Below the pieces are notes generated by a model. It searched no databases and was not told the DNA's origin. It saw nothing but the letters and a program-made list of their open reading frames with translations. From a virus, in IMG/VR virus record IMGVR_UViG_3300048872_000016, positions 1 to 38,068 of that record: a stretch of 38,068 bases of DNA. The stretch is one strand, 5' to 3'. The position numbers and the translations under genes are program-made. Positions 4,044 through 15,095 of this stretch are shown here, in pieces (the first letter of the stretch is position 1; the number at the start of each line of letters is the position of its first letter).

Positions 4044-4050
4044 GGACACT

Positions 4051-4084
4051 AAGGGGGAGTGACTCGTCTGAGTCACTCCCCCTT
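4051..4084 (+). terminator. hairpin terminator after the Lsr2-like gene
   Basis: A perfect 15-bp stem, AAGGGGGAGTGACTC pairing with GAGTCACTCCCCCTT, with a 4-base loop, begins seven bases after the stop codon. It lacks a long U tract on the rightward strand, so it may terminate only partly or act as a processing or stability element. Confidence 0.65.
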
Positions 4085-4111
4085 ATTCGCATCCCCTAAA
4101 GGAGTAGACAC

Positions 4112-5438: not shown

Positions 5439-5476
5439 GGGAGCCCCTAGTCAATCAACGGGGGCTAGGGGCTCCC
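5439..5476 (+). terminator. hairpin after the basic protein gene
   Basis: A perfect 12-bp stem, GGGAGCCCCTAG pairing with CTAGGGGCTCCC, with a 14-base loop. It starts 46 bases after the stop. No U tract follows, so it may be a partial terminator. The surrounding 170 bases are notably rich in CTAG. Confidence 0.5.
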
Positions 5477-5804: not shown

Positions 5805-5835
5805 CCAATCGGAATGCAGTAAGCACCAATGCAAT

Positions 5836-5934
5836 GCAGTGACTCGGTATCTCAGGTGGGTTATCAGTGGGAACCTTGCTTGACCTTGGAAGTCATACAC
5901 GTCCCGATGGCGCGTATGGGTACCGAGTCACTGC
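5836..5934 (+). ncRNA. structured RNA candidate closed by a 14-bp stem
   Basis: GCAGTGACTCGGTA (5836-5849) pairs perfectly with TACCGAGTCACTGC (5921-5934). The 71-base interior can form smaller arms: GGTT/AACC, TGAC/GTCA with a 7-base loop, and CCC/GGG, giving a multi-branched, cloverleaf-like shape that is not a tRNA. It ends 35 bases before the next ATG, so it could be a leader element of the helicase operon or a stand-alone RNA. Confidence 0.45.
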
Positions 5935-5969
5935 GTCGTATCCCCCGGATCGAAAGGCGAATAGATCTA

Positions 5970-6239
5970 ATGGCGCTTAAGAAATGCCCGTACTGCGGAC
6001 ATGAAGAGGATGACGGTAAGGTGTTCCGGCTAGCGATCTATGTAGGTGACGTTCGACTCGCAATCATTCCAGCGGGCACGGCCACCTTTGCAGAGATCAA
6101 AGCCATAGTAAAAGCTACCCCCGGTAGTTACCTCATGGAAGAGGTCTTGAATGCGAACGGACGGATCTCGCATTCAAGACAAGTAGCAGAATCACTCATG
6201 GTCTATACAACTGACGGAAAGCTGAAAGAGAGAATCTAA
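5970..6239 (+). CDS. zinc-ribbon hypothetical protein, 89 aa
   Basis: Starts MALKKCPYCGHEEDDGKVF, with one CxxC knuckle followed by a mixed alpha/beta body. The frame is open upstream, but this ATG is chosen because it lies nine bases after GAAAGGCGA. The upstream part of that frame would run through the structured RNA. The TAATG overlap with the helicase gene indicates coupled translation. Function unknown. Confidence 0.6.
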   Translation: MALKKCPYCGHEEDDGKVFRLAIYVGDVRLAIIPAGTATFAEIKAIVKATPGSYLMEEVLNANGRISHSRQVAESLMVYTTDGKLKERI

Positions 6240-13093: not shown

Positions 13094-13560
13094 TGAGTGA
13101 CGAAGAATTCGACAGCTTTAGCGATGACCTCGGAGACGTAATCCCCGATGCTCTCGTTACGGACACCTACCTCTGTAATCTTGAGGAGGTCAAGCGTATT
13201 GAAGCAAAGGACAAGGTTAAGTACAACGTCTTTGAGTGGGAGGTTATCCAAGAGGGTGTTTATGAAGGCGAGACATTCTCTGAGATGTACCGTCACGCGA
13301 CACTCGCCGAATACTCCATTGCTGACAAGAAAGAGCAGCGTGAAATCAGGGAAGCACGGCGCAAGTTCCAAGCGCGTCTTATCTCCTTGGGTGTTCCTGA
13401 GAATGAGATGGGAACTGTGAAGCCCTCTAGTCTTGTTGGTCTCAAGGCTCATGTCACAGTCAATGTCAAGCCTCGCACTAAGGGACCTGGATTCTCTATC
13501 TGGGTACAGGGTGTAGAGGTTGCGGATCTCTCAAAGGAGACAACAGAACTCACCTTCTAG
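13093..13560 (+). CDS. probable single-strand DNA-binding / recombinase partner protein
   Basis: 155 aa from the ATG overlapping the ATPase stop. Acidic N-terminus (SDEEFDSFSDDLGD) then a beta-rich core: VTDTYLCNLEEVKR, YNVFEWEVIQEGVYEGETF, VGLKAHVTVNVK, FSIWVQGVEVADL. The pattern 'input protein, ligand statement, EGVYEGETF' is like the OB-fold proteins that travel with Sak4 ATPases in phages (DUF669-like). I infer a single-strand-binding or ATPase-partner role from fold pattern and neighbourhood. It is followed by two strong hairpins, so it ends the recombination operon. Confidence 0.6.
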   Translation: MSDEEFDSFSDDLGDVIPDALVTDTYLCNLEEVKRIEAKDKVKYNVFEWEVIQEGVYEGETFSEMYRHATLAEYSIADKKEQREIREARRKFQARLISLGVPENEMGTVKPSSLVGLKAHVTVNVKPRTKGPGFSIWVQGVEVADLSKETTELTF

Positions 13561-13637
13561 AGTTGTGGCACACAGGGGTTGTAGTCGTTTGAGTGAGGAC
13601 AAACAGACTCCCTCTGTACGGCTCTGAGAAGGTGACT

Positions 13638-13680
13638 GAGACTCGCCGGTAATTTCCGGGGGGTAATCCCGGCGAGTCTC
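13638..13680 (+). terminator. hairpin 1 after the recombination operon
   Basis: GAGACTCGCCGG pairs perfectly with CCGGCGAGTCTC over a 19-base loop. It lies 77 bases past the stop of the single-strand-binding-like gene, and a second strong hairpin follows it within two bases. Confidence 0.55.
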
Positions 13681-13681
13681 T

Positions 13682-13718
13682 CCCCCTGCCTCTGAATCGA
13701 CCCCACAGAGGCAGGGGG
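13682..13718 (+). terminator. hairpin 2 after the recombination operon
   Basis: CCCCCTGCCTCTG pairs perfectly with CAGAGGCAGGGGG over an 11-base loop. There is no U tract on either side. Together with hairpin 1 it insulates the following miniprotein cassette from upstream transcription. Confidence 0.55.
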
Positions 13719-13747
13719 ATACCCCCTAACTAACTAAGGAATAGGCA

Positions 13748-13825
13748 ATGACGCTTGATCTTATTTGTGGTAAATGGGGCGCTCCGACGTTTCAAGGATG
13801 CACTTGTCCTAAAGGAATTGAGTAA
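13748..13825 (+). CDS. Cys-containing miniprotein, 25 aa (CHHC cassette member 1)
   Basis: Reads MTLDLICGKWGAPTFQGCTC then PKGIE. It keeps a CG near the start and C-x-CP near the end like the three following genes, but lacks their two His residues, so it is a diverged relative at best. Its TAA overlaps the next ATG (TAATG). Confidence 0.45.
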   Translation: MTLDLICGKWGAPTFQGCTCPKGIE

Positions 13826-13926
13826 TGCCTGCTAAATACTGCGGTTCTACTCAAACTCATAGTGCGCATTCATTCCTATTCGGTAATGGAACATACAACT
13901 GTCCCGGTTATACGTCAGGAGAATAA
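13825..13926 (+). CDS. CHHC miniprotein, 33 aa (cassette member 2)
   Basis: Contains YCGSTQTHSAH, a ten-residue spacer, then CPGYTSGE: C-x5-H-x2-H-x10-C-P-G. This is the fullest form of the signature shared with members 3 and 4. It likely binds one zinc. Coupled on both sides by TAATG. No family recognised. Confidence 0.55.
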   Translation: MPAKYCGSTQTHSAHSFLFGNGTYNCPGYTSGE

Positions 13927-14000
13927 TGATCGGATACTGCGGAGCTATCTATTTCCATGGGCCACATGATGACTGCCCCGGATATATGGCGGAAGGCTAA
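13926..14000 (+). CDS. CHHC miniprotein, 24 aa (cassette member 3)
   Basis: Reads MIGYCGAIYFHGPHDDCPGY then MAEG: C-x5-H-x2-H-x2-C-P-G. This is the same signature as member 2 with the inner spacer shortened from ten to two residues. TAATG overlaps at both ends. Confidence 0.55.
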   Translation: MIGYCGAIYFHGPHDDCPGYMAEG

Positions 14001-14107
14001 TGGCAGAGTCTAAGTATTGTGGCAACAGCTATAGCCACGGTGCACATACGTATCTGCTAGGCGGGGTCTATTACGATTGCCCCGGATCAGCAGAAGGCGC
14101 TAACTAG
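14000..14107 (+). CDS. CHHC miniprotein, 35 aa (cassette member 4)
   Basis: Contains KYCGNSYSHGAH, a ten-residue spacer, then CPGSAEGAN: C-x5-H-x2-H-x10-C-P-G, aligned without gaps to member 2. Last gene of the coupled cassette, which then runs into two strong hairpins. It probably arose by tandem duplication with member 2. Confidence 0.55.
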   Translation: MAESKYCGNSYSHGAHTYLLGGVYYDCPGSAEGAN

Positions 14108-14111
14108 AGCT

Positions 14112-14152
14112 GACCTACAGAATGACACCGCCAGAAAGACATTCTGTAGGTC
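14112..14152 (+). terminator. hairpin 1 after the miniprotein cassette
   Basis: GACCTACAGAATG pairs perfectly with CATTCTGTAGGTC over a 15-base loop, starting five bases after the cassette's last stop codon. A second hairpin follows six bases later. Confidence 0.55.
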
Positions 14153-14157
14153 TTAGT

Positions 14158-14205
14158 GGGGACCGGTTCTCACTTCCCCGTGCCCGGAACCGGTCCCCTC
14201 TTTTC
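14158..14205 (+). terminator. rho-independent terminator after the miniprotein cassette
   Basis: GGGGACCGGTTC pairs perfectly with GAACCGGTCCCC (14187-14198) over a 17-base loop and is followed by TCTTTTC, a short U-rich tail in the rightward direction. This is the best candidate for a true intrinsic terminator in the rightward arm. Confidence 0.65.
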
Positions 14206-14223: not shown

Positions 14224-14319
14224 ATGGCTAAGCACACTCATAACACACAGGGACATTGTTCGTGCGGCGCGACTTACTGTACTGATTGTGGACATAGCTG
14301 TGATGTGAGCGGACGCTAA
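14224..14319 (+). CDS. Cys/His-rich miniprotein, 31 aa
   Basis: Reads MAKHTHNTQGHCSCGATYCT then DCGHSCDVSGR. C-x-C....C-x2-C..C with flanking His residues suggests a zinc knuckle, but it does not share the CHHC signature of the cassette upstream. It is preceded by TAAGGATTAACAGA, a weak ribosome-binding site. Confidence 0.45.
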   Translation: MAKHTHNTQGHCSCGATYCTDCGHSCDVSGR

Positions 14320-14325
14320 TGAGTT

Positions 14326-14422
14326 CCTACCCTGGGTGAATAGCAGAGTACGTGAACGCTCTTTAGGAGTTAATCGCCTTTCGCCTAAAGCAGCGAACCG
14401 AAAACTGTTCACCCAGGGTAGG
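14326..14422 (+). ncRNA. structured RNA candidate closed by a 15-bp stem made of two dispersed-palindrome copies
   Basis: CCTACCCTGGGTGAA (14326-14340) is the exact reverse complement of TTCACCCAGGGTAGG (14408-14422). The 67-base interior holds a further arm, CGCT-C-TTTAGG against CCTAAA-GC-AGCG. Each outer arm contains one copy of the palindrome found across the genome. The region is non-coding and lies between a miniprotein and tRNA-Met. It could be a folded RNA, a pair of operators able to loop DNA, or both. Confidence 0.45.
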
Positions 14423-14428
14423 TCAAAT

Positions 14429-14508
14429 CAGCTTACAGAAGCATGGTGATACAGGAGATCTGTATACAGCGATAGCAACTGGCGCGCATGAAACACTTCT
14501 GTAAGCTG
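14429..14508 (+). ncRNA. structured leader immediately 5' of tRNA-Met
   Basis: CAGCTTACAGAAG (14429-14441) pairs perfectly with CTTCTGTAAGCTG (14496-14508), only three bases before the tRNA. Inside, ATACAG/CTGTAT forms a second hairpin. The position suggests a processing or stability element for the tRNA transcript; it does not itself fold as a tRNA. Confidence 0.45.
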
Positions 14509-14511
14509 CAA

Positions 14512-14583
14512 TGCGGGATAGTTTAACGGTAGAACACAAGCCTCATTCGCTTGAAGATGTCAGTTCGAATCTGACTCCCGCCA
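14512..14583 (+). tRNA. tRNA-Met (anticodon CAT)
   Basis: All arms can be drawn: D-stem GTTT/GAAC with part wobble and loop AACGGTA; anticodon stem CAAGC/GCTTG with loop CTCATTC (anticodon CAT); T-arm GTCAG-TTCGAAT-CTGAC; discriminator A. Acceptor pairs 2-7 are perfect but the terminal 1-72 pair would be T-C, a mismatch. The CCA end is not encoded. A CAT anticodon could also serve Ile after lysidine modification, which the sequence cannot settle. Confidence 0.85.
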
Positions 14584-14615
14584 CTAATCCCTACTCTTTC
14601 AAGGGAGAAAGAGCT

Positions 14616-14812: not shown

Positions 14813-14893
14813 GTGTGTGTTCCGGCCGATAGCAAATGTAAGAAGTGCGGGACTACATGGTGTTCTAAGCACGAAACTCATAGCTGCGCTTAA
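14813..14893 (+). CDS. zinc-binding-like miniprotein, 26 aa
   Basis: GTG start, reads MCVPADSKCKKCGTTWCSKH then ETHSCA. C-x2-C...C-x2-H...H-x-C gives a knuckle-like pattern. It follows the previous stop by two bases. Weak ribosome-binding site, supported mainly by context and composition. Confidence 0.4.
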   Translation: MCVPADSKCKKCGTTWCSKHETHSCA

Positions 14894-15032: not shown

Positions 15033-15095
15033 ATGGGAGACCTTTGCCCGCACGGTATTCCTTGGACCTATGACTGTGATGACTGTGGGAGATAG
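15033..15095 (+). CDS. Cys-containing miniprotein, 20 aa
   Basis: The whole product is MGDLCPHGIPWTYDCDDCGR, with C-x-HG and C-x2-C. CPHGIPW resembles the CPHGVPC unit of the miniprotein at 9257. AGGGGAAGTA precedes the ATG, and its TAG overlaps the GTG start of DNA polymerase by one base, so it may be a leader peptide coupled to the polymerase. Confidence 0.45.
   Translation: MGDLCPHGIPWTYDCDDCGR

Follow-up and report, generated by a model that had tools for sequence, protein, structure and literature searches.

Overlapping miniprotein genes with a CHHC signature upstream of a phage DNA polymerase I gene, and a matching uncatalogued module in other actinophages

Described small modules and the setting of the cassette

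The retroviral-type zinc knuckle has the ligand order CCHC (C-x2-C-x4-H-x4-C). The CHHC finger of U11-48K, TRM13-type tRNA methyltransferases and GTSF1 has the pattern CPX4HX9HX3C and is confined to eukaryotes (PMC9539491). Among phages, the host-takeover module of SPO1 is a cluster of small genes (PMC6873191), and small phage proteins that act by binding are documented (PMC11323111).

The locus described here is a cassette of four consecutive miniprotein genes (members 1-4) in the virus record IMGVR_UViG_3300048872_000016, whose full 38,068 bases are the window of this analysis. Like the U11-48K/TRM13/GTSF1 finger, members 2-4 have the ligand order C-H-H-C with C-x5-H and are small independent units of a kind often found in tandem, but their spacings are x5, x2 and x10 (x2 in member 3). 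Neither this finger nor the CCHC knuckle was matched in Pfam by members 2-4. An earlier reading made from the sequence alone (the sequence-only reading) had suggested a single-zinc knuckle made by tandem duplication; "knuckle" is the wrong family name because in the retroviral knuckle the ligands are CCHC and differently spaced, whereas members 2-4 carry a single Cys before the first His, and the duplication part fits the comparisons given below. The likeness to the SPO1 module and to other small phage proteins lies in a cluster of small genes of unknown or binding function and is an analogy of role only.

The window encodes portal, capsid and tape-measure proteins, a helicase, a RecB-like exonuclease, a Sak4-like ATPase and DNA polymerase I. 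The polymerase is nearest to those of Arthrobacter phages of Jasminevirus (37-38%), and the host is therefore likely an Arthrobacter-like soil bacterium. The cassette is flanked by DNA polymerase I and the gene of a 154-residue protein, which is called SSB-like on position alone and matched no PHROGs profile. The surroundings of the cassette yielded no sigma-70-like promoter. Further strong inverted repeats occur in the early region of the window (4050-4085, 5439-5476, 5834-5936 and 6144-6180).

The cassette and its counterpart in a related phage

The four ORFs have the lengths, coordinates and overlaps that the sequence-only reading had given them (Table 1); TAATG joins them at 13823, 13924 and 13998, and a purine-rich Shine-Dalgarno-like stretch lies 5' of every start (4/4 members). 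Members 2, 3 and 4, with two Cys each, share CG-x4-H-x2-H-x(10/2/10)-CPG, in that order; as had also been claimed, members 2 and 4 have cores that can be aligned gap-free, and eight residues of the stretch from the second His to the last Cys are missing in member 3. The pattern CG-x4-H-x2-H-x(2-12)-CPG occurs 3 times in the six frames of the window, versus 0 occurrences in 300 dinucleotide-preserving shuffles. The cassette itself is unstructured as RNA (z -0.67), which rules out conserved RNA structure within it as the cause of its conservation.

Table 1. Features around the cassette in the window and their counterparts in the related phage (locus L006); pN/pS compares synonymous and nonsynonymous differences over the aligned codons of the two phages, with sites treated as independent.
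Feature	Window position	Strand	Product or fold	Position in L006	pN/pS
154-residue protein gene	13096-13560
Two abutting RNA hairpins, directly 5' of cassette	13638-13680, 13681-13719	+	13571-13720 folds at z -4.8	57-99 (hairpin 13638-13680)
Member 1	13748..13825	+	25 aa, MTLDLICGKWGAPTFQGCTCPKGIE; distinct small Cys protein outside the CHHC module; open frame, TAATG into member 2	171-248	0.16 (p=1.4e-6)
Member 2	13825..13926	+	33 aa, CGSTQTHSAHSFLFGNGTYNCPG; CHHC module	379-492, GTG start, CGASYMHDPHPHTVNGVSYICNG	0.54 (p=0.005)
Member 3	13926..14000	+	24 aa, CGAIYFHGPHDDCPG; CHHC module, predicted to lack the hairpin	476-568	0.18 (p=1.3e-6)
Member 4	14000..14107	+	35 aa, CGNSYSHGAHTYLLGGVYYDCPG; CHHC module	568-675	0.66 (p 0.2, not significant by itself)
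Two RNA hairpins, directly 3' of cassette	14112-14152, 14158-14198	+	within 14108-14205; region z -7.7
31-aa Cys/His miniprotein	14224..14319	+	MAKHTHNTQGHCSCGATYCTDCGHSCDVSGR; other type	950-1045	0.25
Long RNA element	14326-14422		z -6.1; conserved outer stem CCTACCCTGGGTG	about 1046-1155
Strong hairpin	14429-14508		z -4.4; directly before tRNA-Met gene
tRNA-Met gene	14512-14584
26-aa Cys/His miniprotein	14813..14893	+		1230-1310, identical after the start codon except at one residue
20-aa Cys miniprotein	15033..15095	+	MGDLCPHGIPWTYDCDDCGR; just before DNA polymerase I	from 1452	0.15

A search for related loci with the cassette alignment returned a single relative, IMGVR_UViG_3300037483_000151, a contig with overlapping ends that carries the cassette at its start. 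Identity to the window is 72-86% in matching segments around the cassette and about 78% in the flanks. Frames broken beside conserved flanks, which the sequence-only reading had named as refuting evidence, are not what the relative has; it keeps members 1-4 in frame. Member 1 is conserved in its own right (LICGKWGAPTFQGCTCPK in the window, LVCGTCGAPSFQGCPCPK in the relative), the counterpart of member 3 retains the x10 spacing (CGANYFHGSHNYYNGGSYDYCPG), and that of member 4 is 69% identical and likewise TAATG-coupled. Pooled over members 1-4, pN/pS is 0.38 (Fisher p 1e-9), which is purifying selection. Given this, the in-frame retention and the 0/300 shuffles, members 1-4 are almost certainly genes. 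The relative also carries two Cys-rich miniproteins that the window lacks, at L006 248-286 (MCQLCSEGPCNN) and 301-375 (MLDKCLCPDPMCPLHTYGGGQSEG), a turnover of cassette content that we count in support of the preferred explanation below.

Member 3 is identical to its counterpart at 15/21 aligned residues (~70%), and members 3 and 4 are 42-50% identical to their cassette neighbours, below the ~70% to their positional counterparts. Since each is nearest to its positional counterpart, the duplications are older than the split of the two phages, and the sequence comparisons support members 2-4 as paralogues. Because the relative's member 3 retains ten residues from His to Cys, the eight-residue loss appears, on the evidence of two genomes, specific to the window lineage. 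AlphaFold2 models (12-sequence alignments, low pTM of 0.47-0.48, metal-free) predict a beta-hairpin at residues 15-19/22-26 of member 2 (pLDDT 87) and 16-20/23-27 of member 4 (pLDDT 82), and concur in starting it at the second His and ending it at the last Cys; the deletion in member 3 would thus remove most of the hairpin, and on these models it puts the ligands side by side. Foldseek found no similar solved structure.

The stretch from the cassette to DNA polymerase I also encodes three conserved Cys/His miniproteins of other types (31, 26 and 20 aa). The 26-aa protein weakly resembles Pfam zf-AN1 (E=0.0097, 16.4 bits, below the cut-off of 27.9).

The segments with hairpins around the cassette fold at z -4.4 to -7.7. 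Compared with the relative, hairpin 13638-13680 has 4 two-sided compensatory changes and an invariant loop (TAATTTCCGGGGGGTAAT), and in hairpin 14158-14198 both partners differ in 7/12 pairs, pairing is preserved in every one, and the loop CACTTCCCCGnGCCCG is kept; this stem covariation is drawn from two sequences, the window and the relative. The G-run of one flanking loop and the C-run of the other could pair. The long element 14326-14422 holds an inner motif, CTTTAGGAGTTAwTCGCCTTTCGCCTAAAG, that is conserved in both phages. In the relative a tRNA lies elsewhere, 5' of a hairpin at L006:872-918. A search of Rfam returned tRNAs and no family that fits the hairpins; two sub-threshold Thr_leader matches fell on a terminator-like repeat and were rejected.

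The CHHC module in other actinophages

Members 1-4 matched nothing in Pfam or NCBIfam and members 2 and 4 nothing in PADLOC; the best PHROGs match, for member 2, had E=0.13, and the PDB gave no significant sequence or fold match for the module. Literature searches of open-licence papers found no paper on it. The actinophage CHHC module is absent from Pfam, PHROGs, NCBIfam and the PDB, and in that sense is uncatalogued. The signature had been described as new-looking, and the libraries searched bear this out in having no entry for it; it is not new to the window phage, because the module recurs in other actinophage protein contexts.

A fixed-spacing DNA pattern search of IMG/VR gave 51 stretches, whose frames were read and divided by eye into chance matches and plausible proteins. 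When IMG/VR was searched with C-G-x4-H-x2-H-x10-C-P-G, and 84,980 genomes with a variant that has P after the first His, many matches arose by chance from the reading frames of other genes; what stood out was limited to actinophage proteins and two Streptomyces loci. Loci L003, L004 and L005 were set aside as chance matches; L035 was also rejected, its match lying close to the start of a RecB-like nuclease and its CPG being probably coincidental. Matches of member 4 to mycobacteriophage holins (tblastn in phages, E=4) were likewise chance. A nucleotide search of isolated phages with the cassette region gave zero matches, as did tblastn in isolated phages with the four-module region of locus L037.

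A profile built from 16 actinophage modules, with the cassette sequences left out, was run on 36,097 ORFs of the fetched loci. Beyond the training set and close copies, its best match was the relative's member 4 (E=3.8e-7), followed by window members 4 (E=1.4e-6) and 2 (E=2.8e-6), with the next of all ORFs at 0.0013. Since the fetched loci were partly gathered by the same signature, the fair control is shuffles with the signature (C,G,H,H,C,P,G) held fixed, and these reached the real score in 1/500 (member 2) and 2/500 (member 4) cases. Both members therefore show similarity beyond the signature, and both outscore all 24 chance pattern matches. Member 3 scores 3.7 bits on a very short sequence. 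Members 2, 3 and 4 contain C-x5-H-x2-H-x(n)-C-x-G and member 1 does not; member 1 had been taken for a looser relative of the others, with which it has small size, Cys content and coupling in common, and its negative score with a module profile (-1.5 bits; -3.6 bits for the relative's member 1) rules it out of the module. In an alignment of 23 modules drawn from many phages, the C, H, H and C ligands and the final G never vary, an invariance that is partly a selection effect because most modules were found by the signature. By sequence comparison, members 2 and 4 are assigned to a wider actinophage module, C-x5-H-x2-H-x(2-16)-C-x-G.

In Streptomyces-phage-like proteins the module stands at or near the end; it forms the tail of gp207 of Streptomyces phage Annadreamy (CSFSKGHPEHVWMQARRPFQCPG), and L037 has four tandem modules in one protein, ahead of another domain. 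These copies share with the cassette the C,H,H,C,G spacing, mostly a P before the final G, a profile match and, in most copies, aromatics following the second His and preceding the last Cys. They sit inside longer proteins (hypothetical where annotated), whereas in the cassette the module is the whole protein.

Locus L097 has two overlapping module genes, and one of its ORFs led to 49 Arthrobacter phage records. In Gordonvirus phages two adjacent genes, each with the signature, lie directly 5' of the DNA helicase gene, the second often unannotated. Cultured Arthrobacter phages with consecutive overlapping module genes before the helicase are Tokki (gp81/gp82), Gordon (gp68 and an unannotated ORF) and GantcherGoblin, whose three module genes have the order gp72-TAATG-gp73-unannotated ORF (L153:2827-2985)-TAATG-helicase; Argan, Uzumaki, Zeina and Lewando have versions of the GantcherGoblin region. 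These genes resemble the cassette in being consecutive and overlapping, with TAATG in GantcherGoblin, and in carrying the CHHC signature, there near the N terminus. They differ in that the proteins are longer (46-147 aa), the modules often end in C-[TKN]-G rather than CPG, and the genes adjoin a helicase gene, not DNA polymerase I and the 154-residue protein gene as in the window. In signature-fixed shuffles the real score was reached in 1/500 each for Tokki gp82 and Gordon gp68, 10/500 for L097 and, a weaker similarity, 19/500 for GantcherGoblin gp73. GantcherGoblin gp72, its unannotated ORF and Qui gp229 showed no similarity beyond the signature in this control, so the claim for these extends to a shared signature and not to homology. 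Its recurrence in cultured Arthrobacter phages and other actinobacterial phages makes the module real and testable.

In line with the earlier expectation, such ORFs are often missed by gene callers: the second module ORF has no annotated feature in Gordon, Makai and Teacup. In GenBank, unannotated module ORFs closely precede or overlap the annotated helicase start in Gordon (L146), Makai (L144), Teacup (L148) and GantcherGoblin (L153), and in some of these records the helicase start may be placed too early.

Candidate roles of the miniproteins

The explanation that we prefer, and hold to be somewhat better than an even bet as a whole, is that the cassette encodes free-standing CHHC miniproteins, stabilised by zinc, with accessory or host-takeover binding roles and no enzymatic activity. 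One mRNA from the replication region would carry the cassette, and coupled re-initiation at TAATG would yield several diverged copies at comparable levels. In each unit the two His and the Cys on either side of them probably hold one zinc, with which the conserved ligands and the predicted hairpin are consistent. The hairpin between the second His and last Cys could serve as a variable recognition face, and member 3 would be the copy that lost it. The copies would then be small binding proteins, each with its own partner; for members 2-4 a binding or accessory role is moderately favoured. The chances that the targets are in the host rather than the phage are about even, and the helicase neighbour in Arthrobacter phages, with the position among replication genes in the window, makes a partner linked to replication and a host target equally plausible.

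A rival reading has the miniproteins as disulfide or redox peptides, or as units holding another metal or cofactor; in its favour, the motif is common to no solved structure. Each unit has only two Cys, and the two His at fixed x2, kept family-wide, would be needless in a disulfide peptide; there is no apparent secretion signal and the cytoplasm is reducing. A role without structural zinc is accordingly unlikely, at perhaps one chance in several.

Slightly less probable still is a role of the miniproteins as RNA-binding zinc modules, acting on the surrounding structured RNA or tRNA and controlling decay or translation of the region. The flanking hairpins keep their loops while the stems covary, as recognised loops should, and structured RNA is the target of a different CHHC finger type, that of U11-48K and GTSF1 (PMC9539491). 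The covariation comes from two sequences only, however, members 2 and 4 are not basic as judged from sequence, and the module occurs in many other phages, yet the loop of hairpin 13638-13680 and the inner motif of 14326-14422 were found in no IMG/VR contig besides the two phages. A bolder form, in which the cassette is a split zinc-finger array whose CHHC units, translated separately and kept in fixed ratio by TAATG coupling, assemble or act jointly on the phage RNAs with the two kept loops, is improbable; if true, it would be a phage RNA-protein regulatory system without a described counterpart.

That the ORFs are a translational relay, in which translation and coupling count and the peptides do not, has very little probability: TAATG chains exist, and that of GantcherGoblin reaches the helicase start, but the protein is conserved beyond the DNA, the ligands are retained across contexts, and the window chain stops at hairpins and does not lead into a downstream gene. 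Both fused and split forms occur and member 3 appears to have lost its hairpin, yet a functionless, decaying split form of a multi-module protein such as that of L037 is the least credible reading, with frames, starts, Shine-Dalgarno-like sites and ligands intact under purifying selection in two phages whose flanking DNA is about 78% alike.

On the preferred explanation, zinc-stabilised binding miniproteins, this uncatalogued CHHC module of 15-30 residues would rank with the shortest candidates for a metal-stabilised domain, and it comes in many natural variants, one of them apparently hairpin-less. Its ORFs are a real gene class skipped by annotation, even in curated phage genomes. Relatives of the module occur in cultured phages of Arthrobacter sp. 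ATCC 21022 and A. globiformis B-2979, which opens zinc binding, essentiality and partners to direct testing.
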